Source: Paracidovorax wautersii
GTDB lineage: Bacteria > Pseudomonadota > Gammaproteobacteria > Burkholderiales > Burkholderiaceae_C
Length of the DNA stretch: 64,000 bases
Direction of reading: 5' to 3'
Assembly: GCF_031453675.1 (NCBI RefSeq)
Contig: NZ_JAVIZX010000001.1
Location: 3,866,001-3,930,000 of the forward strand
The notes beneath the pieces are model-generated. The model was given only the letters and a program-made list of their open reading frames with translations. It was not told where the DNA came from and did no database searches. Positions 1 through 58,925 of this stretch are shown here, piece by piece. The position numbers and the translations under genes were made by a program. Positions within the stretch are counted from its first letter, which is position 1. Each line of letters opens with the position of its first letter.

Positions 1-353
<353 letters not shown>

Positions 354-599
354 TTACTTGGAATCTTCGTCCGGCATGGGCCGGGGCTGCTGCATCAGGC
401 TTTCCACCTGCTGCTGGATCTGGCGCTGCACCTGCTGGCCCTGGACGCGGACGATCGCGTCGGAAGCGCCCTGTGCCGGCGCCGACGCGCCCGGAACAGC
501 GGGCACGGTGACGCGGGTGGCATCCACCTGCTTTCTGGCCAGCACGGCCACGATCGCCAACGCGGCCAGCACGCCCGCCAAACCCCATCCCATCCGCAT
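354..599 (-). CDS. Small membrane-anchored hypothetical protein
   Basis: 81 residues. Residues 4-21 form one hydrophobic segment ('GWGLAGVLAALAIVAVLA'), followed by a Pro/Ala stretch and a Gln-rich segment (about 53-71) likely to be helical, ending in an acidic tail. Topology suggests an inner-membrane anchor with a periplasmic tail (inference). The ATG at 599 is chosen because AGGAGA stands 8 bases before it; the open frame continues further upstream but without a site. No family recognised. It sits between tadA and the binding-protein gene, both also on the minus strand. Its stop lies at the edge of repeat copy 1. Confidence 0.65.
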   Translation of the reverse strand: MRMGWGLAGVLAALAIVAVLARKQVDATRVTVPAVPGASAPAQGASDAIVRVQGQQVQRQIQQQVESLMQQPRPMPDEDSK

Positions 600-2126: not shown

Positions 2127-4133
2127 ATGTCTTTGCTGCCCCACCAACTCGAACTCCTGTCCCCCGCCCGCGATGCCGACATCGGCATCGAGGCCGTGAA
2201 CCACGGCGCCGACGCCGTCTACATCGGCGGGCCGGCCTTCGGAGCGCGGGCGACGGCGGGCAACGATATCCGCGACCTGGAGCGGCTCATCCGCCACGCG
2301 CACCGCTTCCACAGCCGCATCTTCATCACGCTCAACACCATCCTGCGCGACGACGAGCTGGAGGACGCCCGCCGCATGGCCTGGCAGGTGTACGAAGCCG
2401 GGGCCGACGCGCTCATCATCCAGGACATGGGCCTGCTGGAGCTGGACCTGCCCCCCATCCAGCTGCACGCCAGCACGCAGACCGACATCCGCACGCCCGA
2501 GAAGGCGCGCTTCCTGCAGGACGCCGGCCTGTCGCAGATCGTGGTCGCCCGCGAGCTGGACCTGGACCAGATCGCCGCCGTGCGGGCCGCCACCGACCCT
2601 GCCCGCACCACCATCGAATTCTTCGTGCACGGCGCGCTGTGCGTGGCCTATTCGGGCCAGTGCTATATCACCCACGCCCACACCGGCCGCAGCGCCAACC
2701 GCGGCGACTGCAACCAGGCCTGCCGCCTGCCCTACGAGGTGCTGGATGGCCAGGGCCGCATCCTGGCACACGAGAAGCACGTGCTCTCGATGAAGGACAA
2801 CAACCAGAGCGACAACCTGCGTGCGCTGATCGACGCCGGCGTGCGCAGCTTCAAGATCGAGGGCCGCTACAAGGACATGGGCTACGTGAAGAACATCACG
2901 GCCCACTACCGCAAGCTGCTCGACGAGATCATCGAGGAGCGCGAGTTCACCGCGCAGCCGCTGGCGCGGTCGTCCTCGGGCCGAACCACCTTCACCTTCA
3001 CGCCCGATCCCGATCAGAACTTCAACCGCGAGTTCACCGACTACTTCGTCAACGGCCGCAAGGAAGACATCGGCGCCTTCGATACGCCCAAGACGCCGGG
3101 CCGCGCCATCGGCTGGGTGACCCAGGTGGGCGAGAACTTCGTCGAGCTGGAGCTGTCGAGCCCCGAGACCGTGCTGCACAACGGCGACGGCCTGTGCTAC
3201 TACGACCTGCAAAAGGAACTGGTGGGCCTGCAGATCAACCGCGCCGAGGCCGTGAACGCCCAAAAGGGCCGGTGGCGCGTGTTCCCCAAGGACCCCATCG
3301 CCGGCTTCAAGGACCTGCGCCGGGGCCTGGAAGTGAACCGCAACCGCGACATGGACTGGGTGCGCACGCTCGACAAGAAATCGAGCGACCGCCGCATCGG
3401 CCTGTGGGCGCAGCTGTCGGAGACTTCGGACGGCTTCGACCTGACGCTGACGGACGACGATGGCTTTGTGGGCAGCGCGGCCATTCAGCATGCCCACCAG
3501 CGCGCCACCGATGCCGCCCAGGCCGAGGCCACGCTGCGCGAGCAACTGGGCCGCTTCGGTGCCACGAGCTTCTCGGTACACGACATCGCGCTCAGCCTGT
3601 CGCAGCCCTGGTTCATTCCGGCGTCAGCGCTCAACCAGCTGCGCCGCGACGCCGTCGCCGCCCTGGAATCGGCACGCGCTGACGGCCTCGCGCGCCTGCC
3701 GCGCGCCACGCCGGTCGAGCCGCCAGCCCCCTTCCCCGAAGACACGCTCACCTACCTGGCCAACGTGTACAACCAGAAGTCCCACGACTTCTACATGAAG
3801 CACGGCGTGAAGGTGATCGACGCGGCCTACGAGAGCAAGGAAGAGGAAGGCGAGGTCAGCCTGATGATCACCAAGCACTGCGTGCGCTTCTCCATGAGCC
3901 TGTGCCCCAAGCAGGCCAAGGGCGTGATCGGCGTGAAGGGCACCATCAAGGCCGAGCCGCTGCAGCTCATCAACGGCAAGGAAAAGCTCACGCTGCGCTT
4001 CGACTGCAAGCCCTGCGAGATGCACGTGGTGGGCAAGATGAAGAAGTCGGTGCTGAACCAGCACGCCAAGGACATGCAGATTGCGCCGCTGCAGTTCTAC
4101 CGCACGCGGCCCGCGCCCTCATCGCTCTCATAA
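2127..4133 (+). CDS. rlhA: U32-family protein RlhA (YdcP), 23S rRNA C2501 hydroxylation
   Basis: 668 residues, close to E. coli YdcP/RlhA, which is needed for 5-hydroxycytidine at position 2501 of 23S rRNA. It carries the peptidase U32 signature at about 164-182 ('EFFVHGALCVAYSGQCY') and a second Cys pair in 'RGDCNQACRLPY'. The four cysteines at 172, 179, 195 and 199 are the likely iron-sulfur ligands. The N-terminus 'LELLSPARDADIGIEAVNHGADAVYIGG' is the standard start of the TIM-barrel. The frame is open far upstream (to 1536), but that part is antisense to the neighbouring gene; ATG 2127 begins the conserved protein. A repeat copy begins exactly at the TAA stop. Older annotations call the family 'collagenase-like protease'. 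Confidence 0.9.
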   Translation: MSLLPHQLELLSPARDADIGIEAVNHGADAVYIGGPAFGARATAGNDIRDLERLIRHAHRFHSRIFITLNTILRDDELEDARRMAWQVYEAGADALIIQDMGLLELDLPPIQLHASTQTDIRTPEKARFLQDAGLSQIVVARELDLDQIAAVRAATDPARTTIEFFVHGALCVAYSGQCYITHAHTGRSANRGDCNQACRLPYEVLDGQGRILAHEKHVLSMKDNNQSDNLRALIDAGVRSFKIEGRYKDMGYVKNITAHYRKLLDEIIEEREFTAQPLARSSSGRTTFTFTPDPDQNFNREFTDYFVNGRKEDIGAFDTPKTPGRAIGWVTQVGENFVELELSSPETVLHNGDGLCYYDLQKELVGLQINRAEAVNAQKGRWRVFPKDPIAGFKDLRRGLEVNRNRDMDWVRTLDKKSSDRRIGLWAQLSETSDGFDLTLTDDDGFVGSAAIQHAHQRATDAAQAEATLREQLGRFGATSFSVHDIALSLSQPWFIPASALNQLRRDAVAALESARADGLARLPRATPVEPPAPFPEDTLTYLANVYNQKSHDFYMKHGVKVIDAAYESKEEEGEVSLMITKHCVRFSMSLCPKQAKGVIGVKGTIKAEPLQLINGKEKLTLRFDCKPCEMHVVGKMKKSVLNQHAKDMQIAPLQFYRTRPAPSSLS

Positions 4134-4193
4134 CCATAGCTGCCTGCGCTTGCTGCATAAGCACAACAGGCCGATTTGGCTTGGATTTTCAAG
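4131..4193. repeat. Dispersed palindromic repeat, copy 2
   Basis: 'catagctgcctGCGCTTgctgcatAAGCac' followed by the typical tail 'ggccgatttggcttggattttc'. It starts at the stop codon of rlhA and fills the first third of the gap before the O-acetylhomoserine sulfhydrylase gene. Confidence 0.85.
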
Positions 4194-11862: not shown

Positions 11863-11896
11863 GGGAGCGCTCCGGGAGGATGGATCGGAAGCGCAT

Positions 11897-11956
11897 TATC
11901 AATAAAAATGCTCTCAGCGCTTGTCAGACAAGCGCTGAGAGCTATGCTTTTGATAG
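11897..11956. repeat. Dispersed palindromic repeat, copy 3 (near-perfect hairpin)
   Basis: The most symmetrical copy. Two perfect 15-base arms (11911-11925 and 11927-11941) around one base, containing CTCTCAGCGCTTGTC and its complement, nested inside outer TATCAA / TTGATA ends. Lies between purL and the DUF808 gene; it could stop or stabilise transcripts on either strand. Confidence 0.85.
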
Positions 11957-11976
11957 TGCGCCGATGCGGTGCGCGG

Positions 11977-14900
11977 TCAGCCCACCCACTTGCGCGCGTT
12001 GCGCCAGATGCGCATCCACGCGCTGAACTGGTCAGCGTCGCCGCTGGTCCAGCTCATCTGGATGTTGCGGAACACGCGCTCGGGGTGCGGCATCATGGCC
12101 GTGAAGCGGCCGTCCGCCGTGGTCACCGCCGTCAGGCCGCCCGCGCTGCCGTTCGGGTTGAACGGGTACTGCTCGGTGGCTGCGCCGTGGTTGTCCACGT
12201 AACGCATCGCCGCAATCGCCTGCGCCGCATTGCCGCGGCGGCTGAAGTTGGCGTAGCCCTCGCCATGTGCCACCGCGATCGGCAGCCGGCTGCCGGCCAT
12301 GCCGGCAAAGAACAGGCTGGGTGACTCCAACACCTCCACCAGCGACAGGCGGGCCTCGAAGCGCTCGCTCTGGTTGGTGGTGAAGCGCGGCCAGGCTTCG
12401 GCGCCGGGAATGATGTCGGCCAGCTCGGCGAACATCTGGCAGCCGTTGCACACGCCCAGGCCGAACGTGTCGGTGCGGCCGAAGAAGCCCTTGAACTGGT
12501 CCGCCAGTACCGGGTTGAAGGTGATGGAACGCGCCCAGCCGATGCCGGCACCCAGCGTGTCGCCGTAGCTGAAGCCGCCGCAGGCGACCACGCCCTTGAA
12601 GTCGGCCAGATTCGCGCGGCCGGTCTGCAGGTCGGTCATGTGCACGTCGTACGCCTCGAAGCCTGCCTCGGTGAAGGCGTAGGCCATCTCGATGTGCGAG
12701 TTCACGCCCTGCTCGCGCAGGATGGCGACCTTCGGCTTGGCGAGGTTCAGGAACGGTGCGGCCACGTTCTCGGTCGGGTCGAACGTCAGGGCGACGTGCA
12801 GGCCCGGGTCGGTCGGCTCGCCGGCAGCGGCGTGCTCGGCATCGGCGCAGGCGGGGTTGTCGCGCTGCTGGCAGATCTTCCAGCTCACGGCGTCCCACAC
12901 CTGGTGCAGGTCGGACAGCGTGGCGCTGAACACGCTCTTGGCATCGCGCCACACCTGCAGCTCGCCCTTGCCCACGTCCATGCTGGACGACTGCGGGCGC
13001 GTCTTGCCGACGAAGTGGCTCCACTTACTCAGGCCGTGCTCGCGCAGCGTCTGCATCACGTCATTGCGGTCGGCCGTGCGCACCTGCAGCACCACGCCCA
13101 GCTCTTCGTTGAACAGTGCCTTCAGCGTGAGTTCTTCGCGGCGCGCGCTCACCTGCTGGGCCCAGTTCTTGGCGTCGCCGGTTTCCATGCGGCTGTCGCT
13201 GATGCCGTCGCCTTCGGTGACCAGCATGTCCACGTTCAGTGCCACGCCCACGTGGCCGGCGAAGGCCATCTCGGCCGCTGCGGCCAGCAGGCCACCGTCG
13301 CTGCGGTCGTGGTAGGCCAGGATCTGGCCCTTGGCACGCAGCGCGTTCACGGCGTTGACCAGGTTCACCAGGTCCTGCGCGTCGTCGAGATCGGGCGCTA
13401 CGTCACCGGCCTGGCCCAGCACCTGGCCCAGGATGGAGCCGCCCATGCGGCACTGGCCCTTGCCCAGGTCGACCAGCACCAGTGTGGTGTCTTCTTCCGT
13501 GGCGTCGAGCTGCGGCGTGAGCGTGCCGCGCACGTCGGGCAGCGTGGCGAAGGCGCTCACGATCAGGCTCACGGGCGAGGTCACCTTCTTGGCCGCGCCG
13601 GACTCGTCCTTCCACTGCGTGCGCATGGACAGCGAATCCTTGCCCACGGGGATGCTGATGCCCAAAGCGGGGCACAGCTCCATGCCCACGGCCTTCACCG
13701 TGGCATACAGATCGGCGTCTTCACCGGCTTCGCCGCAGGCGGCCATCCAGTTGGCGGACAGCTTCACGCGCGGCAGCTCGATAGGCGCGGCCAGCAGGTT
13801 GGTGATGGCCTCGGCCACGGCCATGCGGCCGGATGCGGGCGCGTCGATGGCAGCCAGCGGCGTGCGCTCGCCCATGCTCATCGCCTCGCCGGCAAAGCCT
13901 TTGTAATCGGCCAGCGTGACGGCGCAATCCGCCACCGGCACCTGCCAGGGGCCGACCATCTGGTCGCGGTGGCTCAGGCCGCCCACCGTGCGGTCGCCGA
14001 TGGTGATCAGGAAGCGCTTGGACGCCACCGTGGGGTGCGCCAGCACGTCGATCACGGCCTTTTGCAGCGGCACGCCGGTCAGGTCGATGGGCGCCAGTTC
14101 CCGCTTCACCGTGGTCACGTCGCGGTGCATCTTGGGCGGCTTGCCCAGCAGCACTTCCATGGGCATGTCCACGGGCAGCTTCTGGTCTCCGGACGCAACG
14201 GCGGTGTCTTCCAGCACCAGCTGGCGCTCGCCCGTGGCTGTGCCGATCACGGCAAACGGGCAGCGCTCGCGCTCGCAGAACGCGCGGAACTGTTCCAGCG
14301 ATTCCGGAGCGATGGCCAGCACGTAGCGTTCCTGGCTCTCGTTGGACCAGATTTCTTTCGGAGCCATGCCCGACTCTTCGAGCTGCACGGCGCGCAGGTC
14401 GAAGCGCGCGCCACGGCCCGCATCGTTGGTCAGCTCGGGGAAGGCGTTGGACAGACCGCCCGCGCCCACGTCGTGGATCGCCAGGATGGGGTTGGCCGCG
14501 CCTTGTGCCCAGCAGTGGTTGATGACTTCTTGCGCGCGGCGCTCGATCTCCGGATTGCCGCGCTGCACGGAGTCGAAGTCCAGCTCGGCCGCGTTGGCGC
14601 CCGTGGCCATCGAACTGGCCGCGCTGCCGCCCATGCCGATGCGCATGCCGGGGCCGCCCAGCTGGATCAGCAGCGAGCCGGCCGGGAACTCGATCTTCTG
14701 CGTGAGGCCGGAATCGATCACGCCCACGCCGCCCGCGATCATGATGGGCTTGTGGTAGCCGCGATCGATGCCGCCCACGGTCTGCTCGTATTCGCGGAAG
14801 TAGCCCAGCAGATTGGGACGGCCGAATTCGTTGTTGAACGCGGCGCCGCCCAGCGGGCCCTCGACCATGATCTGCAGCGGGCTGGCGATGTGCTCGGGCT

Positions 14901-15987
14901 TGCCGAACTCACCGCCCCACAGCTTGGACACGGTGAAGCCCGTCAGGCCGGCCTTGGGCTTGGAGCCCCGGCCCGTGGCGCCCTCGTCGCGGATTTCTCC
15001 GCCCGCGCCGGTCGATGCACCGGGGAAGGGCGAGATCGCCGTCGGGTGGTTGTGCGTTTCCACCTTCATCAGGATGTGGTTGGTCGCACTACTCTTTTCA
15101 TAGCTGGAAGCGCTTGCTACACCTGCGCTGGAGGCCATTTTGGCCACAAAACGCTCCACCGGCACGCCTTCCATGATGGAGGCGTTGTCCGAGTACGCCA
15201 CCACCGTGTGCTGGGGCGCCAGCTGGTGCGTATTGCGGATCATGGCGAACAGGCTCTTGTCCTGCTTTTCGCCGTCAATGGTGAACTGCGCGTTGAAGAT
15301 CTTGTGGCGGCAGTGCTCGCTGTTGGCCTGCGCGAACATCATCAGTTCCACATCGGTCGGGTTGCGCTTCAGGGCCGTGAAGGCGTTGACCAGGTAGTCG
15401 ATCTCGTCTTCCGCCAGCGCCAGGCCCCAGCGGGTGTTGGACGCCACCAGCGCCGCGCGGCCGCCGCCCAGCACATCGACGAACTCCATCGGCGCGGCCG
15501 GCAGCTCGGTGAACAGGCCGGACGCATCGGCGCGGCTCCACACCACCGATTCGGTCATGCGGTCATGCAGCAGCGCGGCGACCTGCTGGCGCTGCGCCTC
15601 GGTCAGCTCCGGCGCGCCCCCCAGCAGGCCGGCCTTGAGCGCCACACGGTACTCGGTGATGCGCTCCACGCGGCGGATGTCCAGGCCGCAGTTGCGGGCG
15701 ATGTCCGTCGCCTTGGAGGCCCAGGGCGACACCGTGCCGATGCGCGGCGTGACGATGATGGCGGGGCCGTCGACCGGGCCGGTATAGGCATCGCCGTAGG
15801 TGAGCAGCGCCGACAGGCGCTCGCGCTCGGCGGGCGTGGGTTCGGCATCGGTCGCCACCACATGCACGAAGCGCGCTGCAATGCCGGTGATCTTGGGGTG
15901 GATGGCCTCGAGGGCGGGCTGCAGTTGCTGGGCGCGGAAGGAGCTGAGGGCATTGCCGCCCTCCAGCTGGGTCAAGTGCAAGGTCAC
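11977..15987 (-). CDS. purL: Phosphoribosylformylglycinamidine synthase PurL (single-chain)
   Basis: 1336 residues, about 40 longer than the E. coli enzyme. Converts FGAR, glutamine and ATP to FGAM in purine synthesis. Order: N-terminal PurS-like part, synthetase domain ('[14 protein letters not shown]', '[19 protein letters not shown]', 'GGSAASSM'), second synthetase lobe, C-terminal glutaminase ('[19 protein letters not shown]', catalytic Cys in 'GVCNGCQM', His-Glu pair in 'AVAHGEGY' / 'PHPERVFRN'). Residues about 281-302 ([20 protein letters not shown]) are translated from a copy of the dispersed palindromic repeat, in a place where I would expect a short poorly conserved loop ahead of '[12 protein letters not shown]'. 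Single gene; the ATG at 15987 fits the start of family members. Confidence 0.96.
15082..15145. repeat. Dispersed palindromic repeat, copy 4, inside purL coding sequence
   Basis: 'ctcttttcatagctggaaGCGCTTgctac..' followed by 'gcgctggaggccattttggccacaaaa' matches the family arm by arm. It sits inside the purL frame without a stop codon. Confidence 0.75.
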
Positions 15988-17066: not shown

Positions 17067-19703
17067 ATGTCCCTTCGCACGCCCTCGCCCCCTTCCACTC
17101 CCGCCTGCCTGGCGGAGCTGCACTCTCTGCGCGATACCTACCGGCGGGACAAGGCCGCACTGCTGGCCTCGCTGGCATCCGCCGGCGCCTCCACGCGCAG
17201 CATCCGCACATTGCTGGCGCGGCTGTCGGCACTGACGGACCGGCTGCTGTGCCAGCTCTGGCACCGGGCCGGCCTGCCGCAAGACGTGGTCCTGGCGGCG
17301 GTCGGTGGCTACGGCCGTGCGCAGCTGTTTCCACACTCTGACGTCGACGTGCTGGTGCTGCTGCCCGCAACGGCCGACTCTGGCGACTGCGGCCCGCTGC
17401 GCGCGCCGATCGAGGCCTTCATCGGCAGCTGCTGGGATGCGGGGCTGGAGATCGGCTCCAGCGTGCGCACCGTGGCCGAATGCCTCACCGAGTCCGCCGC
17501 CGACGTCACCGTGCAAACCTCGCTGCTGGAGGCCCGGCGCATCTGCGGCAGCCAGGCGCTGTTCGACGAGTTCAGGGTGCGCTACGACCAGCAGATGGAC
17601 CCCGCCGCCTTCCTCGTCGCCAAGACGCTGGAGATGCGCCAGCGCCACAACAAGTACGAGAACACGCCCTACTCCCTGGAGCCCAACTGCAAGGAATCCC
17701 CGGGCGGCCTGCGCGATCTGCAGACCGTGCTGTGGGTGGCGCGCGCAGCCGGCCTCGGCAGCCACTGGAGCGAGCTGGCTGCCAGCGGCCTGGCCACGCC
17801 GCTCGAGGTGAATGCCATCGAGCGCACGGAAGCGCTGTTGTTCCTGATCCGCACCCGCCTGCATGCCATTGCGGGCCGGCACGAAGACCGGTTGGTGTTC
17901 GACCTGCAGACCGCCGTGGCCGAGGCTTTCGGCTACCGCTCCACCTCGCCCGACGGCAAGCGCCTGGCCATGCGCGCCAGCGAGACGCTGATGCGCCGCT
18001 ACTACTGGGCCGCCAAGGCCGTGTCCCAGCTCAGCCAGATCCTGCTGCTGAACATCGAGGAACGGCTCAGCCCCTCCACGCACGAGCTGCGCCGCATCAA
18101 CGATCGCTTCTTCGACAAGGCCGGCCTGATCGAGGTCGCCAGCGACGACCTGTACGAGAAGCATCCGCACGCCATCCTCGAAACCTTCCTGCTCTACGAG
18201 ACCACGCCCGGCCTGCAGGACCTGTCGGTGCGCACGCTGCGCGCGCTGTACAACGCACGGGGCGTGATGGACGCGGCCTTCCGCCGCGATCCGGTCAACC
18301 GCGCCAACTTCATGCGCATCCTCAAGCAGCCGTCGGGCATCACCCACGCCATGCGGCTGATGAACCAGACCTCGGTGCTGGGGCGCTACCTGTGGCCGTT
18401 CCGGCGCATCGTCGGGCAGATGCAACACGACCTGTTCCACGTCTACACCGTGGACCAGCACATCCTGATGGTGCTGCGCAACGTGCGCCGCTTCTTCATG
18501 CCCGAGCACGCGCATGAGTACCCCTTCTGCTCGCAATTGGCCGGTGGCTGGGACAAGCCGTGGCTGCTTTATCTGGCCGCGCTGTTCCACGACATCGGCA
18601 AGGGCCGCGGCGGCGACCACTCCAAGATCGGTGCCGAGGAAGTGCGCCACTTCTGTCGCCAGCACGGCGTGGGCAAGGACGATGCGGCCCTCGTCGAATT
18701 CCTGGTCAGCGAGCATCTGGCCATGAGCCAGGTGGCGCAGAAGCAGGATCTGTCGGACCCCGACGTGATCGGTGCCTTCGCGCGCCGGGTGGGCAACGAG
18801 CGCAACCTGACAGCGCTGTACCTGCTGACCGTGGCCGACATCCGCGGCACCAGCCCCAAGGTCTGGAACGCCTGGAAGGGCAAGCTGCTGGAAGACCTGT
18901 ACCGCGCCACGCTGCGCACCCTGGGCGGCCGCGCACCCGACGCCGCCGCCGAAATCGAAGCCCGCAAGCGCGAGGCGCTGGTGCTGCTGGCACTGAGCGC
19001 CCAGCCTTTCGAGGCCCACAAGAAGCTGTGGGACACGCTCGACGTGGGTTACTTCATGCGCCACGAGGCAGCCGACATCGCCTGGCACACGCGCCATCTC
19101 TCGCGCTTCGTGGGTTCCGCCAAGCCGGTGGTACGGGCACGCCAGTCGCTGGCGGGCGAGGGACTGCAGGTCATGGTCTATGCGGCGGATCAGCCCGACC
19201 TGTTCGCCCGCATCTGCGGCTACTTCGACCGGGCGGGCTTCAGCATCCTGGACGCGCGTGTGCACACGGCGAACAACGGCTACGCGCTGGACACGTTCCA
19301 GGTCGTGGCCTCCGACCAGGCCGGGCACTACCGCGAGCTGACCAACATGGTGGAAAACGGCCTGGTGCAGGCCATCGAGGAAGGCGGCCCCCTGCCCGAG
19401 CCGGCCCGACGGCGCGTGTCGCGGCGCGTGAAGAGCTTTCCCATCGCGCCCCGCGTGGCACTGCGCCCGGACGAAAAGGCACAACGCTGGCTCATCAGTA
19501 TCTCTGCCAGCGACCGCGCGGGCCTGCTGTACCTGGTGGCGCGGGTGCTGTCGCAGCACCACCTCAGCGTGCAACTGGCCAAGGTCAGCACGCTGGGCGA
19601 GCGCGTCGAAGACACCTTCCTGGTGCAAGGGCCCGAACTGCAGAACAACGCGCGGCAGATCCAGATCGAGACCGAGCTGCTCGACACGTTGTCCGCGCAC
19701 TGA
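17067..19703 (+). CDS. glnD: Bifunctional uridylyltransferase/uridylyl-removing enzyme GlnD
   Basis: 878 residues. Senses glutamine and adds or removes UMP on PII proteins, setting nitrogen control. Domains in order: nucleotidyltransferase with '[19 protein letters not shown]' (about residues 77-96), central helical linker, HD domain '[19 protein letters not shown]' (about 502-520), and two C-terminal ACT domains (starting near '[21 protein letters not shown]' and '[20 protein letters not shown]'). A GTG at 17031 in frame gives 12 more residues; the ATG at 17067 is preferred by comparison with family starts. Likely co-transcribed with map. Repeat copy 5 begins right after the stop. Confidence 0.95.
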
Positions 19704-19763
19704 TTGCTACGCTTTATATAGCATCATGCGCTTATTCATGAAGCGCTGCAGCCTGTTTGATAC
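19704..19763. repeat. Dispersed palindromic repeat, copy 5
   Basis: 'tatatagcatcatGCGCTTattcatgAAGCGCtgcagcctgtttgatac' fills nearly the whole 74-base gap between the convergent glnD and def stops. A terminator-like role is possible. Confidence 0.85.
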
Positions 19764-19777
19764 GCAACAGGTCGACG

Positions 19778-20940: not shown

Positions 20941-20951
20941 CTAAGTCTTGT

Positions 20952-21027
20952 TCCTCGATAGCTCAGTCGGTAGAGCGCCGGACTGTTAATCCGTAGGTCC
21001 CTGGTTCGAGCCCAGGTCGAGGAGCCA
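20952..21027 (+). tRNA. tRNA-Asn (anticodon GTT), copy 1
   Basis: 76 bases including encoded CCA. Acceptor stem TCCTCGA / TCGAGGA, D arm 'GCTC..GAGC', anticodon GTT at 20985-20987, T arm with 'GGTTCGAGCC'. The anticodon reads AAC/AAU. Confidence 0.97.
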
Positions 21028-21089
21028 AGATTTTTGTCTTGTGCTTAGTCAACATCACAAGATCAACCGACATTCGACATACCGAATAT

Positions 21090-21165
21090 TCCTCGATAGC
21101 TCAGTCGGTAGAGCGCCGGACTGTTAATCCGTAGGTCCCTGGTTCGAGCCCAGGTCGAGGAGCCA
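21090..21165 (+). tRNA. tRNA-Asn (anticodon GTT), copy 2
   Basis: Identical over all 76 bases to the copy 62 bases upstream; anticodon at 21123-21125, encoded CCA. Probably in one transcript with copy 1, ended by the terminator directly after it. Confidence 0.97.
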
Positions 21166-21170
21166 AACAA

Positions 21171-21409: not shown

Positions 21410-21788
21410 TGGTGGAGCTGGGGGGAATTGAACCCCCGTCCGCAAGCCTTCTTCGGGCAGATCTACATGTTTAGCGGTCTGTTTTGAATCTCACTCCCGA
21501 CATCGCGCAGTCGCACGCTATGCCGGAAGCCAGCACCCTTGGATCTCGCTCAACACCAAGGTACCCGGTGCCAAGCCAGCTGATGTGAATAACCTTGCAG
21601 CCGGGAGGCCTTGCGGCCCCCTTGCCCAGCCCATCAGCGTGCTGTTGCAAGGCTCACCGGTTATTAAGCGGCGAGTGCGAAACGTTCGTCGTTTGCAGTT
21701 AGTTTTTTGAATGCAGATTTACGAGCGCCACTCAAGCTCGACATGCACCACGCCGATTCCGAACCCACGTCGAAACCAGGGCAGCCCC
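21410..21788 (-). ncRNA. ssrA: Transfer-messenger RNA (tmRNA, ssrA)
   Basis: 379 bases. Rescues stalled ribosomes with SmpB. The 5' end GGGGCTG pairs with the 3' CAGCTCC of the tRNA-like part, which ends in encoded CCA; the T arm reads 'GGTTCAATTCCCC'-like at the 3' side. The mRNA-like part encodes the tag ANDERFALAA followed by two stops (TAA TAA), a sequence typical of betaproteobacteria; the resume codon region lies near 21700. A G+C-rich stretch between 21540 and 21660 would form the pseudoknots. Promoter at 21798-21826. Confidence 0.97.
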
Positions 21789-26816: not shown

Positions 26817-26839
26817 CGCCCCGCTGCGCGGGGCGTTTT
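26817..26839 (+). terminator. Terminator after gyrA
   Basis: Stem CGCCCCGC / GCGGGGCG with a TGC loop and TTTT. It separates gyrA from serC, so serC-pheA-tyrA likely also have their own promoter. Confidence 0.85.
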
Positions 26840-26846
26840 GCTACGG

Positions 26847-26896
26847 ATAATATAGCTGCATGCGCTTATGCATCAAGCGCCAGCGCCCTGTTTGAT
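26847..26896. repeat. Dispersed palindromic repeat, copy 6, in the serC leader
   Basis: 'ataatatagctgcatGCGCTTatgcatcAAGCGCcagcgccctgtttgat'. It lies between the gyrA terminator and the serC start codon, so it is probably the 5' leader of serC. An in-frame ATG (26868) lies inside it. Confidence 0.85.
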
Positions 26897-26906
26897 GTCA
26901 AAGACC

Positions 26907-30156: not shown

Positions 30157-32183
30157 TGTACGACACCGCCTTTCTCGACCTGCCGCCGCTGGCTTCCGCC
30201 GGCGGAGAGGTTCTGCTGCCTGGCTCCAAGAGCATCTCCAACCGCGTGCTGCTGCTGGCCGCGCTGAGCGAAGGCACGACCACCATCCACGATCTGCTGG
30301 ACTCTGACGACACGCGCGTCATGCTCACCGCGCTGCGCGAACTGGGCTGCCAGGTCACGCCCGCCCAGGCCACACCGGGCCAACCCGTGCAGATCACCGG
30401 CATCGATGGTGCCCTGCCCAACAATGCGCGCGTGCAATTGTTCCTCGGCAATGCCGGTACCGCCATGCGCCCGCTGACGGCGGCCCTGGCCGTGTTGGGC
30501 GGCAGCTTCGAGATGACCGGCGTGCCGCGGATGTACGAGCGCCCCATCGGCGACCTGGTGGACGCCCTGCGGCAGCTGGGCTGCCACATCGACTACCTGG
30601 GCAACCCCGGTTTTCCGCCGCTGCGGATCGGCCAGCCCGACTCCAGCCAGCTGAGCGATGCGCCCATCACCGTACGCGGCGATGTTTCCAGCCAGTTCCT
30701 GACCTCGCTGCTGATGGCCCTGCCCCTGCTGGCGACGGAACGCGACATTCATATCGAGGTGGTGGGCGAGCTGATCTCCAAGCCCTACATCCACATCACG
30801 CTGGAGCTGCTGGCCCGCTTCGGCATCGCTGTGCGCAACGAAGGCTGGCAGCGCTTCGTGATTCCGGCCGGCAGCCGCTACCGCTCGCCCAGCACGATCC
30901 ATGTCGAGGCCGACGCCTCGTCCGCTAGCTATTTCATAGCGCTTGGCGCAATTGCAGCAAGCGCCGAAGGCCAAAATGGCATCAAAATCCTGGGCGTGGG
31001 CCTGGATTCGATCCAGGGCGACATCCGCTTCACGGAAGCCGCCCAGGCCATGGGCGCCGCCATCACCGGCGGGCCCAACTGGCTGCACATCCGGCGCGGC
31101 ACGTGGCCGCTCAAGGCCATCGACCTGGACTGCAACCACATCCCAGACGCCGCCATGACGCTGGCCGTCATGGCGCTGTACGCCGAAGGGACGACCACGC
31201 TGCGCAACATCGCCAGCTGGCGGGTCAAGGAGACCGACCGCATCGCCGCTATGGCGACCGAGCTGCGCAAGCTTGGTGCCACCGTGGAGGAAGGCGCAGA
31301 CTACCTCCGCGTCACACCGCCCGCCGGCCCGGGCGGCTGGCGCATCGGCAGCATCCACACCTACGACGACCACCGCGTGGCCATGTGCTTCTCGCTGGCG
31401 GCCTTCAACCCGGCGGGCCTGCCTGTGCGCATCGAAGACCCGAAGTGCGTCGCCAAGACCTTTCCGGACTACTTCGAGGCGCTGTTCAGCGTCGCCCACA
31501 CGGCGACCGCGTCCGTGCCCGTGATTTGCATCGACGGTCCCACCGCCTCGGGCAAGGGCACGGTAGCGGCTGCGGTCGCCCGCCGCCTGGGCTACCGCTT
31601 CCTCGACTCCGGTGCCATGTACCGCATCACCGCGCTCGCTGCAGCGCGCGCCGGGCTGGCGATCGATGCGCAACACGAACCGCAGATCGCAGCCCTCGCC
31701 CGCACCCTGCCCGTGCGCTTCGAGGACGGCCGCATCTGGCTGGGCCAGGACGACGTGACCGATGCCATCCGTACCGAAGAGGCCGGCATGAACGCCTCCC
31801 GCGTCTCGGCCCTGCCCTCGGTGCGCGAGGCGCTGGTGGCGCTGCAGCACGGCTTCCGGCGCCTGCCGGGCCTCGTCGCTGACGGGCGCGATATGGGCAC
31901 GGTGATCTTCCCGGAAGCCCCGCTCAAGGTCTATCTGACCGCCAGCGCCGCCTGCCGCGCGGAGCGCCGGCATAAACAATTGATTTCAAAGGGAATTTCG
32001 GCTAACATAGCCGACCTTCGCGCCGACCTAGAGGCGCGCGACGCACGGGACAGTTCTCGCAGCGTGGCGCCCTTGAAGCCTGCCGAAGATGCTTTGGTGC
32101 TGGACAACTCCACGCTCACGGTCGATGAGGCCGTTGAACAAGTGGTTGCCTGGTGGCTGGAGCGCCAGCCTTTCGCTACCTGA
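30156..32183 (+). CDS. aroA-cmk: Fused EPSP synthase (AroA) / cytidylate kinase (Cmk)
   Basis: 675 residues, two enzymes in one chain. AroA part (about 1-450): '[20 protein letters not shown]', '[15 protein letters not shown]' and '[18 protein letters not shown]' are the EPSP synthase signatures. Cmk part (about 454-675): P-loop '[32 protein letters not shown]' and '[11 protein letters not shown]'; the CMP-binding insert is conserved. AroA makes EPSP in the shikimate pathway; Cmk phosphorylates CMP/dCMP. In many bacteria the two are adjacent separate genes; no stop or start separates them here. The start overlaps the tyrA stop. Residues about 257-276 are possibly read from a repeat copy. Confidence 0.93.
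30924..30985. repeat. Possible dispersed palindromic repeat, copy 7, inside aroA
   Basis: 'tagctatttcataGCGCTTggcgcaattgcagcAAGCGC' followed by 'cgaaggccaaaatggcatcaaaat' follows the family in arm, core and tail order, but part of it encodes residues ('[10 protein letters not shown]') common in AroA, so the similarity could be partly chance. Confidence 0.45.
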
Positions 32184-34146: not shown

Positions 34147-34464
34147 ATGACCCGATCTGACCTCGTCGAAGAACTGGCCGCGCGCTTTGGCCAGCTCACG
34201 CAGCGCGACGCCGAGTACGCCGTCAAGACCATCCTGGACGCTGTCGGCGACGCCCTGGTGCGCGGACACCGCATCGAGATCCGAGGCTTCGGCAGCTTTT
34301 CGGTCAACCGGCGGCCGCCCCGCATGGGCCGCAATCCCCGCAGCGGCGAGGCCGTGGCCATCCCGGAAAAGCGGGTGCCCCATTTCAAGCCGGGCAAGGC
34401 CCTGCGCGAGGCCGTTGATGCCCGCACCGCACAGTTGAAGGACAGGCCAGAAAACGCTATTTAA
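34147..34464 (+). CDS. ihfB: Integration host factor subunit beta
   Basis: 105 residues. DNA-bending protein, pairs with IhfA. Typical HU/IHF pattern: '[31 protein letters not shown]', '[27 protein letters not shown]' (DNA-binding arm with the intercalating Pro), '[13 protein letters not shown]'. The last codons and the TAA lie in repeat copy 8, so the C-terminal 'NAI' may be repeat-derived. Conserved position after rpsA; a terminator between them suggests only part of the rpsA transcripts reach ihfB. Confidence 0.96.
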
Positions 34465-34512
34465 ACAATAGCAAACTGCGCTTATCAGTCCTGCACCGAG
34501 GCCACTTTTGAC
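34454..34512. repeat. Dispersed palindromic repeat, copy 8 (degenerate), at the end of ihfB
   Basis: 'acgctatttaaacaatagcaaactGCGCTTatcagtcctgcaccgaggccacttttgac': left arm and tail recognisable; right half of the core decayed. Provides the ihfB stop codon. Confidence 0.65.
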
Positions 34513-43102: not shown

Positions 43103-43125
43103 AGCCTCGGCCGCAGCCACGTTCA

Positions 43126-43190
43126 TTGCTATATATTTTATAGCTGTAAGCGCTTATAAAAAAAGGGCTGCAGACCGATTTGGCTTGAAA
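43126..43190. repeat. Dispersed palindromic repeat, copy 9
   Basis: 'attgctatatattttatagctgtaaGCGCTTataaaaaaagggctg' with the full tail 'cagaccgatttggcttgaaa'. Fills the space between convergent mrpG and the 5-oxoprolinase. Confidence 0.88.
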
Positions 43191-43194
43191 ACCC

Positions 43195-46100
43195 TCAGCG
43201 GCTACCGAACCCGCCGCCGCCGGGCGTGTGCACCTCGAACACATCCCCCGCAGCCATCTGCGCCTGGCCGATGTGGGCCAGCGTCTCCACCGTGCCATCG
43301 ACCCGCACCACGCGGTTGATGCCGGGCTGGCCCGGCGCCCCGCCCGCCATGCCGAAGGCGCCGTGCTGGCGCCCGTTCGACAGAATGCTGGCCGTCATGG
43401 GCTCCAGGAACCGGATGCGGCGCACCCCGCCCGGCCCGCCCGGCCAGCGGCCGGCCCCGCCCGAATCCGGCCGCAGCGCGTAGCTTTCCAGCCGCACGGG
43501 GAAGCGGAACTCCAGCACCTCGGGATCGGTCAGGCGGGAGTTGGTCATGTGCGTCTGCACCACGCCCGTGCCGGCAAAGCCGCCCACCAGCCCGCCGGTC
43601 TCGTCGAAGAGCCCGCCCGCACCGCTGCCGCCCGAGATGGTCTCGTAGTATTGGTAGCGGTCGTTGCCGAAGGTGAAGTTGTTCATCGTGCACTGGCTGG
43701 CCGCCGACACGCCCAGCGCGCCCAGCAGTGCGTTGGTGATGCAAGTGGAGGTCTCGACATTGCCCGCCACCACCGAAGCCGGCGGGTGGGGGTTCAACAT
43801 GGAGCCCGGCGGAATGATGACCTCGATGGGCTTGAGGCAGCCCGCGTTGAGCGGAATGTCGTCATCGACCAGTGAGCGGAACACGTACAGCACCGCCGCC
43901 ATGCAGACGGCCGTGGGCGCGTTGAAGTTGTTGGCCTGCTGCGCGCTGGTGCCGGTGAAATCGATCACCGCGCTGCGCCGCGCGCCGCGTCGATGCGCAC
44001 GGCCACCTGGACCTGCGCGCCGTTGTCCAGCGGCAGCGTGAAGCGGCCGTCCTGCAGCCGCGCGGCCAGCCGCGTGATGGCGCGGCGCACCGACTCTTCG
44101 GCGTTGTCCTGCACATGCCGCATGTAGGCCTGCACCACCGGCAGGCCGAACTGCTGCACCATGCGGCGCAGCTCCTGCACGCCCTTTTCGTTGGCCGCGA
44201 TCTGCGCCTTCAGGTCGGCCAGGTTCTGCTGCGGGTTGCGGCTCGGGTAGCGCGCGCCCTCCTGGCCGTCCACGGCTTCACCGGCCAGCAGCGCCTGCAT
44301 CTCGGCTTCGCGCAGCACGCCGCGCTCGACCAGCTTCACGTTGTCGATCTGCACGCCCTCTTCCGCGATGTGCGTGGAGAACGGCGGCATGGAGCCGGGC
44401 GTGATGCCGCCCACGTCCGCATGGTGCCCGCGGCTGCCCACGTAGAAGGTGGGCGCGGCCTCGTCGGCCAGGTAGACCGGGGGTGATGACGGTGATGTCC
44501 GGCAGGTGCGTGCCGCCGTGGTAGGGGTCGTTCAGCACGAACACGTCGCCGGGCTGCATGCGGCCCGCGTTGCGCGCGATCACCGTCTTGATGCTCTCGC
44601 CCATCGAACCCAGGTGCACCGGCATGTGCGGGGCGTTGGCGATCAGCTGGCCTTCGGCGTCGAACAGCGCGCAGCTGAAGTCGAGCCGCTCCTTGATGTT
44701 GACGGAGTGCGCCGTGTTCTGCAGCTGCAGGCCCATCTGCTCGGCGATGTTCATGAACAGGTTGTTGAACACCTCCAGCAGCACCGGGTCCACGGCCGTG
44801 CCGGCGGCGTGCTGCACCACGCGCGGGATGCGCCGCTCCAGCACCAGGTGGTCGCGCGCGGTCAGCATGGCGCCCCAGCCCGGCTCCACGATGGTGGTGG
44901 CATTCTTTTCCGCAATGATGGCCGGGCCGGCGATGGCGTCGCCGGGGCGCAGGTCCTCGCGCACCAGCAGGGCGGCGTCCTGCCATGCCGGCGCGCCATC
45001 GGCCCCCACGGTGTACATGCGCACGCTGCCGCGGCGCGGCGCCTCGCGCGCAGGCTGCAGCGGGTGCACGGCCTCGTGCGGCGCCTCGCCGGCGACCACC
45101 GCCTCGACCGAAACAGCCTCCGCCACCAACCCCTTTCCGGGCATCAGGAAGGCGAAGCGCTGCCGGTAGGCGGCCTCGAAGCCCGCCACGATGGAGGCCA
45201 GATCGCCGAAGGGCACGACCAGCGCGGCATCCGAGCCCTCGTAGCGCACATGCACTCGGCGGTTCACGCGCACGGGACCGGCGCCCGCGGGCTGCTGCGC
45301 CAGCGCTGCGTGTGCTGCATCGGCCAACCCATCCAGCGTGGCGGCAATGCCGCCCAACGCCGGCTGCGTCAAAGGCTGCTCCACCGACTGCTCGCGGATC
45401 ACGCTCTGGTCCGCCAGCCCCATGCCGTAGGCCGACAGCACACCCGCCAGCGGATGCACGAACACGCGCTGCATGCCCAGCGCATCGGCCACCAGGCAGG
45501 CATGCTGGCCGCCCGCGCCGCCAAAGCACTGCAGCGTGTAGCGCGTCACGTCGTAGCCGCGCGCCACCGAGATCTTCTTGATGGCGTTCGCCATCTGCTG
45601 CACGGCGATCTGGATGAAGCCGTGGGCCACATCTTCGGCGCTGCGGCCCGTCTCGGCGGCCAGGGCCGCGAAGCGCTCGCGCACCACGGCATCGTCCAGC
45701 GGCTCGTCGGCCTTGGGGCCGAACACCCGGGGAAAATGGGCGGGCTGGATCTTGCCCACCAGCACGTTGGCATCCGTCACCGCCAGCGGCCCGCCCCGGC
45801 GGTAGCTGGCCGGACCGGGGTGCGCGCCCGCGCTCTCCGGCCCCACGCGAAAGCGCGCACCGTCGTAGCCCAGCAGGGAGCCGCCACCGGCCGCCACGGT
45901 GTGGATGCTCATCATCGGCGCGCGCATGCGCACGCCGGCCACCTGCGTCTCGAATTCCCGCTCGAACTCGCCCGCGTAGTGGCTCACATCGGTGGAGGTG
46001 CCCCCCATGTCGAAGCCGATCACGCGCACCGGGCCGGGGCCTGCCTCTGGGCCCGCCACGGCCTCCGTGGCGCCGCCAAAAGCCAGCTCCGCCGTGCGCG

Positions 46101-48914: not shown

Positions 48915-48940
48915 GCCGCGCCGCGGGGCGGCCGCACCAT

Positions 48941-49002
48941 TCAAGAAAAAATCGGCCTCTAGCGCTTATCCATCAAGCGCATATAGCTATCAAATAAATA
49001 GC
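48941..49002. repeat. Dispersed palindromic repeat, copy 10 (reverse orientation)
   Basis: Tail first ('tcaagaaaaaatcggcctctaGCGCTTatccatcAAGCGCatatagct'), then the AT-rich arm 'atcaaataaatagc'. Fills the gap between convergent peptidase and MarR-like genes. Confidence 0.87.
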
Positions 49003-49003
49003 A

Positions 49004-49534
49004 CTACAACGAAGCCGCCGCGCGGGCGGCCTGGTCGTACATGCCCGACAGCACGCGCAGCAGCCGGGCCAGTTCGCCAATGTCGCGGTTGAGCGCGTCG
49101 TCGGCGTTGAGCGCGTCGATCAGGCAGCTCTCGCGGATCTCGCGGTAGCGCTGCACATACGCCTTGCCGGCCTCGGTGGCGGCATAGGTCACGTCCTTGC
49201 CGTTCTTGCTCGACGCCACCACCCTCAGCGACAGGAGCTTCTTGAGCGAGTAGTTCACCACGTGGGTGTCCTCCACGTTCATGATGAAGCAGATGTCCGC
49301 CAGGCGCTTGTCGCGCGCCCGGTGCGTGACGTGGTGCAGCACGATCACGTCCAGCGGCGTCAGGTCGCGCAGGCCCGCCGCCGCCATGCAGTGCACGATC
49401 CAGCGCTCGAAGGCATTGCCCGCCACGATCAGTCCGAACTCGAACTCGCTCATCTCCGCGCTGTGGGCCGACACGAGATGCGCCGACGACACGATGGGCG
49501 CATGCCCGGGCTTGGGTTGGGCGGCTGGCTTCAT
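49004..49534 (-). CDS. MarR-like winged-helix transcriptional regulator
   Basis: 176 residues. 'FERWIVHCMAAAGLRDLTPLDVIVLHHVTHRARDKRLADICFIMNVEDTHVVNYSLKKLLSLRVVASSKNGKDVTYAATEAGKAYVQRYREIRE' contains the winged-helix pattern: recognition-helix region 'EDTHVVNYSLKKLLSL' and wing 'SSKNGKDVTYAATEAG'. The family is a predicted MarR-type regulator often beside TRAP or amino-acid catabolic genes. Divergent from the TRAP binding-protein gene at 49722, so it likely controls that operon and perhaps the oxoprolinase/peptidase pair. ATG 49534 chosen as first Met of the conserved part with AAGGGG upstream. Stop lies at the edge of repeat copy 10. Confidence 0.82.
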   Translation of the reverse strand: MKPAAQPKPGHAPIVSSAHLVSAHSAEMSEFEFGLIVAGNAFERWIVHCMAAAGLRDLTPLDVIVLHHVTHRARDKRLADICFIMNVEDTHVVNYSLKKLLSLRVVASSKNGKDVTYAATEAGKAYVQRYREIRESCLIDALNADDALNRDIGELARLLRVLSGMYDQAARAAASL

Positions 49535-58840: not shown

Positions 58841-58903
58841 ATCAAATGCTATACTATTTATAGCTTTATGCGCTTATCCCATAAGCGCCAGAGCCACAAA
58901 ACA
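58841..58903. repeat. Dispersed palindromic repeat, copy 11
   Basis: 'atcaaatgctatactatttatagctttatGCGCTTatcccataAGCGCcagagccacaaaac', ending 22 bases before the ferredoxin start. It may be the leader of that gene. Confidence 0.87.
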
Positions 58904-58925
58904 CCCTCAACACCTCGCACTGTCC

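Follow-up and report, generated by a model that had tools for sequence, protein, structure and literature searches.

How a dispersed palindromic repeat comes to be translated within an essential enzyme is the question raised by the purL gene of Paracidovorax wautersii, located in a window of 64,000 nucleotides (the whole stretch of DNA that was analysed). We consider it probable that an old repeat of the Comamonadaceae replaced a loop between a Phe and a Tyr residue of PurL, was inherited there, and has been eroding in lineages which lost the repeat family. The features concerned are the following.

Positions 11977-15987, minus strand: purL, encoding phosphoribosylformylglycinamidine synthase, an open reading frame (ORF) of 1336 amino acids with the repeat in frame inside it.
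Positions 15083-15161, plus strand: envelope of the dispersed-repeat copy inside purL, whose best-scoring part is 15087-15153 (38.0 bits).
Positions 15100-15115, plus strand: perfect core ATAGCTNNNNGCGCTT of the PurL copy.

The repeat profile was trained on 42 type-A copies, all from outside the window, and run on both strands of a genome sample composed of 60 evenly spread 20-kb stretches and the window (1.264 of 4.571 Mb). The segment 15087-15153 was found with an E value of 7.6e-10. The same 1.264-Mb sample, when reversed, gave zero profile matches at E<1. Codon-shuffled genes, amounting to 5.2 Mb, gave zero matches of at least 20 bits. Given this E value and the empty controls, the PurL match is real and beyond chance, which confirms the original prediction that a genuine copy of a dispersed repeat is read in frame inside the essential PurL protein. 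On the minus strand, the repeat is free of stop codons and corresponds to PurL residues about 279-301. Its translation (23 residues) directly precedes a conserved 12-residue PurL motif, and the reading of the ORF thus also bears out the proposed stop-free translation just ahead of that motif. The further proposal, that this position is a surface loop, is plausible from the alignment. A structure model of PurL residues 210-600, in which the repeat forms a loop flanked by two strands, was given no weight (mean pLDDT 49.7). Plasmid matches to the PurL query came from 12 records, all aligned to its first 43 bases, which is the conserved-motif region and lies outside the repeat.

The family is present across the genome. 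With at most one mismatch, the core ATAGCTNNNNGCGCTT occurs 250+229 times genome-wide, compared with 12+6 times for a backwards control; with at most two mismatches, the counts are 429+469 and 162+147, respectively. The sample contains 144 separate copies at E<1e-3 (training copies included), and their placement, based on gene calls made by a simple script, is intergenic in 88 cases, across gene ends in 42, and inside predicted genes in 14. Twelve of the in-gene copies are located well inside the gene and two near an end, to which a weaker one in aroA can be added. The predicted family was therefore recovered genome-wide, while PurL is not its lone coding case. The extragenic copies are unevenly distributed over three gap types (chi-square p 6e-5): divergent gaps hold 9 of the 127 copies with two neighbours, compared with 137 of 720 gaps of at least 40 nt. 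The median distance from a copy to the nearest gene 3' end is 26 nt.

The conserved blocks of the repeat are distributed over about 60 bp. Among 149 aligned matches, the 20 top covarying column pairs do not include any stem pair, and the stem columns hardly vary. A long form of about 100 bp, with an inverted core at each end, was observed in three stretches (L111 at about 13110, L113 at about 4615, and L134 at about 12472). An Rfam search with one intergenic copy gave two matches, both far below the gathering score. In the window, only the tmRNA and two tRNAs reach that score, with no family covering the repeat; the tRNA genes stand in tandem in identical 78-nt stretches (20951-21028 and 21089-21166, 138 nt start to start), and the tmRNA gene is located near them on the minus strand (21410-21788). 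A replichore-polarised orientation was considered, as no perfect plus-strand core fell at 1.1-3.0 Mb among the matches listed; it was dropped because, in the evenly spread sample, both strands carry copies in this region and no replichore pattern is seen.

Outside purL, the profile search of the window found eight more copies at E<1e-3 and two weaker ones (opposite-strand matches of palindromes uncounted), as listed here.

Positions 297-371, plus strand: repeat copy, 47.9 bits.
Positions 4121-4192, plus strand: repeat copy at a gene end, 51.7 bits.
Positions 11903-11958, minus strand: palindromic copy directly after the purL stop codon, 30.9 bits.
Positions 19702-19771, plus strand: repeat copy, 36.1 bits.
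Positions 26836-26903, plus strand: repeat copy, 47.9 bits.
Positions 30926-30994, plus strand: weak coding copy in an aroA-like gene, 18.3 bits, E 0.0011, just below the cut-off.
Positions 34453-34486, plus strand: weak partial copy, 15.9 bits, E 0.0062.
Positions 43125-43199, plus strand: repeat copy, 50.5 bits.
Positions 48931-49005, minus strand: repeat copy, 56.8 bits.
Positions 58845-58912, plus strand: repeat copy, 42.3 bits.

The copy after the purL stop is arranged head-to-head, with two 35-nt arms 1 nt apart and 83% complementary (11891-11961), and this palindrome may act as a terminator.

The PurL copy was followed in relatives using two sets of genomes. The first set, of named genomes, comprised the best 80 of 588 matches and is biased, being ranked by likeness to the repeat-containing query. 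Within these best 80 of the 588 named loci, 14 carry a DNA-level repeat (E<1e-3) at the same place of PurL, on the same strand and in the same frame; in the 50 of the 80 tested for the core, the enriched genomes are exactly those 14. The second set started from a draw of 240 evenly sampled genomes of the family, which is free of this ranking bias. Its purL genes were fetched from 80 genomes: 34 repeat-rich ones (at least 40 core matches and double the control count), 6 borderline ones, and 40 others listed high among the purL matches; the repeat-rich genomes G059, G257, and G280 were left out, having no listed purL place. Here the PurL DNA copy was detected in 22 of 34 repeat-rich genomes and in 1 of 46 other genomes (Fisher p 3.7e-10). 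In the combined set (n=130, including the window's own genome and omitting L198, which duplicates L035), the Spearman correlation of core count with PurL score is 0.75. A PurL score of at least 19 bits is reached by 38 of the 48 repeat-rich genomes, counting the window's own, and by 1 of 82 repeat-poor ones. The original prediction had held that the match would be accidental if relatives without the repeat family carried the same residues at this place; apart from this single genome, the 82 repeat-poor ones compared have no DNA-level copy.

In eight phylogenetically independent pairs, on average 6.3 agree with the association, 0 oppose it, and 1.7 show no difference (median p 0.031, range 0.016-0.125). 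Two observations count against the favoured history: ten of the 48 repeat-rich genomes are without a recognisable PurL DNA copy, and on the tree repeat richness has to change 18 times and the PurL copy 25 times. In the three genomes of the window's genus, core counts are 479, 124, and 11 (control 18, 30, and 32), and the PurL copy scores 38.0 bits, 10.9 bits, and none, respectively; the last of these, G240, has no core excess (11 versus 32) though its two congeners are enriched. As a correlation, the PurL DNA tends to remain repeat-like in genomes that keep the family, and in those that have lost it the loop has drifted or become shorter. Dozens of genomes thus show the fate of a repeat in an essential enzyme as its family lives or dies. 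In two relatives, the open frame of purL extends over only 616 codons (G065:C1:2046646-2047098) and 801 codons (G052:C20:136152-136628), versus about 1350 in most of the other genomes listed, which is possibly due to a frameshift or an assembly error.

The age of the copy was assessed in a tree of the PurL flanks (161 rows, FastTree). The long loop is found throughout a clade of 125 rows, termed Comamonadaceae here, and the 36 rows of the outgroup clades gave no repeat-profile match in PurL. The changed part of the protein is the loop between Phe and Tyr. The Tyr before HILMK is nearly invariant, and its distance to HILMK is constant in most rows; the Polaromonas branch (eight rows) has 4 more residues after the Tyr. 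When the last Tyr, Cys, or Trp is taken as the loop end, the Phe-to-Tyr spacing never falls below 16 in the 48 repeat-rich genomes; in 39 of them it is exactly 16, the same as in the repeat's own translation. In the 82 repeat-poor genomes, it is 8-13 in 48, 15 in 4, and at least 16 in 29 (exactly 16 in 19), with one unread. Many outgroup loops read like RWLPQGYTNAPQY. Some loops of Paraburkholderia and Achromobacter are equally long, repeat-less, and unrelated in sequence, so that loop length alone proves nothing. We read the repeat-poor comamonads at spacing 16 as probably eroded copies; the PurL of G240 is one of these by length and has no DNA-level match.

The near-invariant Tyr and the spacing data indicate that the repeat substitutes for an old loop, with a net gain over insert-less relatives of usually about 4 residues; relative to the closest solved chain, 1t3t (1303 residues), PurL has 7 extra residues at the repeat. 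Neither value accounts for the roughly 40 residues by which the original prediction found the protein to exceed the E. coli enzyme. Nor do most comparisons show the proposed insertion as a clean one; the repeat occupies the position of the old Phe-to-Tyr loop. The PurL repeat is old, with a loop of this type at the same place in repeat-rich relatives, and is no simple recent insertion.

The favoured history would involve a family which has several hundred copies in the window genome, mostly beside gene 3' ends. One repeat would have taken over the Phe-Tyr loop ahead of the conserved motif in the clade's common ancestor or close to it, as the tree suggests. A single strand and frame would have been inherited since then, this frame being open and its Phe and Tyr coinciding with existing PurL residues. 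The translated peptide would be tolerated filler, without selection for its own sequence.

A different explanation is that a mobile palindromic element, similar to Rickettsia palindromic elements (RPE) or to MITEs, simply inserted in a permissive PurL loop and was then trimmed, which we regard as unlikely. The full length of the PurL copy favours it, whereas the usual gain of just about 4 residues does not. The other coding copies bear on this explanation from both sides. Thirteen genes were compared, namely 12 sampled coding copies and the weaker aroA, with PurL kept apart and the L138 copy excluded because its gene extends past the sampled stretch; the gene names were assigned by eye and are partly uncertain. 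Orthologs were taken from two genomes of the window's genus, G138 with fewer repeats and the repeat-less G240, and from the repeat-less G094 of another genus. Relative to G240, the length change is zero in seven of the 13 genes (aroE, ligA, ileS, hpase, g135, hemD, and aroA), and amounts to +1 in ntp, +3 in E2, -8 in dsbD, -20 in mutL, +22 in abc (an ABC ATPase gene), and +26 in pgeF. Relative to G138, the length is unchanged in aroE, ileS, ntp, hpase, g135, hemD, and aroA (the aroA copy has the same length as both same-genus orthologs), and the change reaches +3 in pgeF and +5 in abc. The G094 values were set aside for ligA, in which -317 reflects an alignment failure, and for abc, which is without a G094 ortholog. 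Coding copies are therefore of two kinds, a minority that look like insertions and a larger group that is length-neutral.

Comparison with solved chains gives a similar division. PgeF has about 21 extra residues relative to chain 1z9t (YfiH), which together with the +26 and +22 of pgeF and abc argues for insertion. AroE and AroA gain only 5 residues relative to 3o8q and 3nvs, respectively, which argues against it, and HemD gains about 5 relative to 3re1 in a weak alignment. The seven unchanged lengths likewise count against simple insertion, with identity dropping inside the element: in nine genes, nucleotide identity to G240 is 0.20-0.60 there and 0.61-0.86 in the 60-codon flanks. In ligA, the two codons before the element are identical to those of G240. 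Identity to G138 inside the element is 0.56-0.78 in nine genes, and the repeat is recognised in G138 at abc (43.1 bits), g135 (32.3), mutL (22.3), dsbD (21.6), aroE (16.5), hemD (13.1), and hpase (12.4), with only a trace at the ligA site. No repeat match was found at the G138 sites of pgeF, ileS, ntp, and aroA, at any of the 13 coding loci in G240, or above 5.2 bits at the 11 loci available in G094. For the seven length-neutral copies of the 13, acquisition by replacement would be likelier than plain insertion.

Intergenic sites were comparable with other genomes in 4 of 9 cases in the window. Site 19702 supports simple insertion, since it measures 74 nt as compared with 36 in G240 and 17 in G138, both copy-less and thus 38-57 nt shorter. 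At site 299-371, the copy-less genomes are no shorter, and two further sites gave no clear difference. Site stability was also assessed in the congeneric, repeat-rich genomes G054 and G276, where only about 29 kb of 200-kb stretches aligned. Usable flanks were available for 9 of 37 tested copies, and the matched interval holds a copy in 9 of 9. Six of these nine rows come from three loci, each viewed from either genome and with the same spacing; the remaining three matched intervals differ by more than 1 kb. The three loci with a copy in both genomes at equal spacing argue against simple insertion.

A further alternative is an in-place drive, in which a motif similar to an uptake sequence is spread by biased recombination or conversion, so that codons are rewritten and length is kept. 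In its specific form, a repeat of about 60 bp would rewrite codons of the essential enzymes PurL, AroE, AroA, IleS, HemD, and LigA at constant length (almost constant in PurL). Even within coding sequence, it would be held to its consensus for as long as a putative driving factor stays in the genome. We regard the general explanation as doubtful, and its specific form as having an equally low probability. It would account for the length-neutral coding copies, among which IleS is an example: G138 and G240 share a plain ELVAGDAL of equal length, G094 is repeat-less too, and the repeat occurs only in the window genome. The lack of pairing covariation among the top column pairs is also in its favour, and so is the fact that the fidelity of the PurL copy follows repeat abundance.

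The codon positions of the PurL copy provide another argument of this kind, as they are equally conserved. In repeat-rich genomes, its match to the consensus is 0.61 at third positions and 0.62-0.65 at first and second positions (Polaromonas rows are out of register in this comparison), and third-position A/T is 0.45-0.51 in the copy versus 0.12-0.13 in the flanks. The equal match and the high A/T content count against neutral old capture, because such DNA should have ameliorated. In repeat-poor genomes, A/T is 0.46 versus 0.14 in the flanks when the loop is of the insert type (13 rows) and 0.22 versus 0.15 without insert; these are group means only, since the insert-type labels are over-strict and placed 21 repeat-rich rows under no insert. 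The similar A/T in repeat-poor insert-type loops argues against upkeep by the family. Whether each PurL copy evolves in concert with the family of its genome was also considered, and the data do not bear it out: a preference for the own profile is seen in three of the four genomes but clearly not in G122, and the four genome-specific profiles were built from unequal copy numbers (42, 18, 13, and 22). The G122 copy scores 6.8 with its own genome's profile and 19.2 with that of the window genome, and being lowest with its own profile, it speaks against renewal in G122.

Several observations weaken the in-place drive. At about 60 bp, the conserved stretch greatly exceeds the length of the DNA uptake motifs known to us. 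Only 14 of the 144 copies are in genes, and pgeF and abc look inserted. Most length-neutral copies are weaker matches of 18-26 bits, IleS with 24.6 bits among them, AroE (39.1) being the exception. On the other side, uptake sequences (USS) reportedly arise through point mutations rather than by the insertion of an element, according to the relevant passages of PMC7811141, which fits an in-place origin. The length-neutral copies make the route of entry testable, since the empty sites expected under plain insertion differ from those expected under in-place rewriting.

Two remaining explanations are far less probable than those above. It is very improbable that the PurL loop is the origin of the whole family: both repeat ends fall on residues that PurL already had, which speaks for it, but the repeat exists in short and long two-arm forms and is mostly intergenic, other genes read it in other frames, and none of the 36 outgroup rows score with the profile. 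That the PurL codons resemble the repeat by chance, for which it can be said that PurL has RF.A and the Tyr even where the repeat is missing, is the least credible of all in view of the E value, the empty null searches, and the association with repeat-rich genomes.

The reading that an old repeat replaced the PurL loop can be set beside several known systems. The family resembles REP/BIME elements in having hundreds of palindromic copies, mostly extragenic and near gene 3' ends. Similar to REP elements with their RAYT transposases (background from parts of PMC2817692), the window genome has one Y1-type transposase gene with a repeat copy upstream, but it is without two flanking inverted copies, the repeat being on one side only. 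This gene (PF01797; G000:C1:343932-344627, covered by L171 and L342) has a relative in 229 of 240 genomes, mostly as one match, and is possibly long-kept and domesticated. It was rejected as the spreader of the repeat because relatives occur whatever the repeat count and, among 30 loci fetched at 3.7 kb, a repeat lies near the gene in 4 of 16 repeat-rich genomes; the gene itself was located by motif only in L342 and elsewhere judged by its expected place in the locus. As regards MITEs, which have terminal inverted repeats, the ends of the long form are inverted.

The uptake sequences (USS/DUS) are described in the same passages of PMC7811141 as evolving in place and being scarcer in coding sequence. 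In-place evolution may be a point of likeness, with 7 of 13 comamonad coding copies length-neutral, 2 insertion-like, and the 4 others changed by -20 to +3; the difference lies in the comamonad repeat being much longer and mostly intergenic. Another abundant palindromic repeat of a comamonad is VeiPR1 of Verminephrobacter eiseniae, called unique to that species in the part of PMC3975124 that treats it, and compared here by description only. The portion of PMC2755013 consulted concerns CRISPR and general features. Among the literature matches listed, there was no description of the comamonad repeat inside genes.

The closest comparison is with RPE, which the relevant parts of PMC10969869 and PMC3733652 describe as dispersed palindromic repeats of about 150 bp found in frame inside unrelated genes, nearly half of them coding in R. 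conorii according to a review. The comamonad repeat is likewise palindromic, dispersed, and in frame in several unrelated genes (14 of 144, and aroA). In contrast to RPE, it is about 65 bp long and coding copies make up 14 of the 144 sampled; among the 13 coding copies compared, 7 are length-neutral and not insertions, and 2 make the gene longer by about one element; and the frame read in PurL differs from that of most antisense coding copies, as judged by eye. If this reading is true, protein-coding palindromic repeats extend beyond Rickettsia to free-living betaproteobacteria. Measured against the RPE descriptions, in which the length-gaining insertion is the defining trait that the comamonad copies mostly lack, the element is an RPE-like coding repeat of Comamonadaceae and not an RPE.
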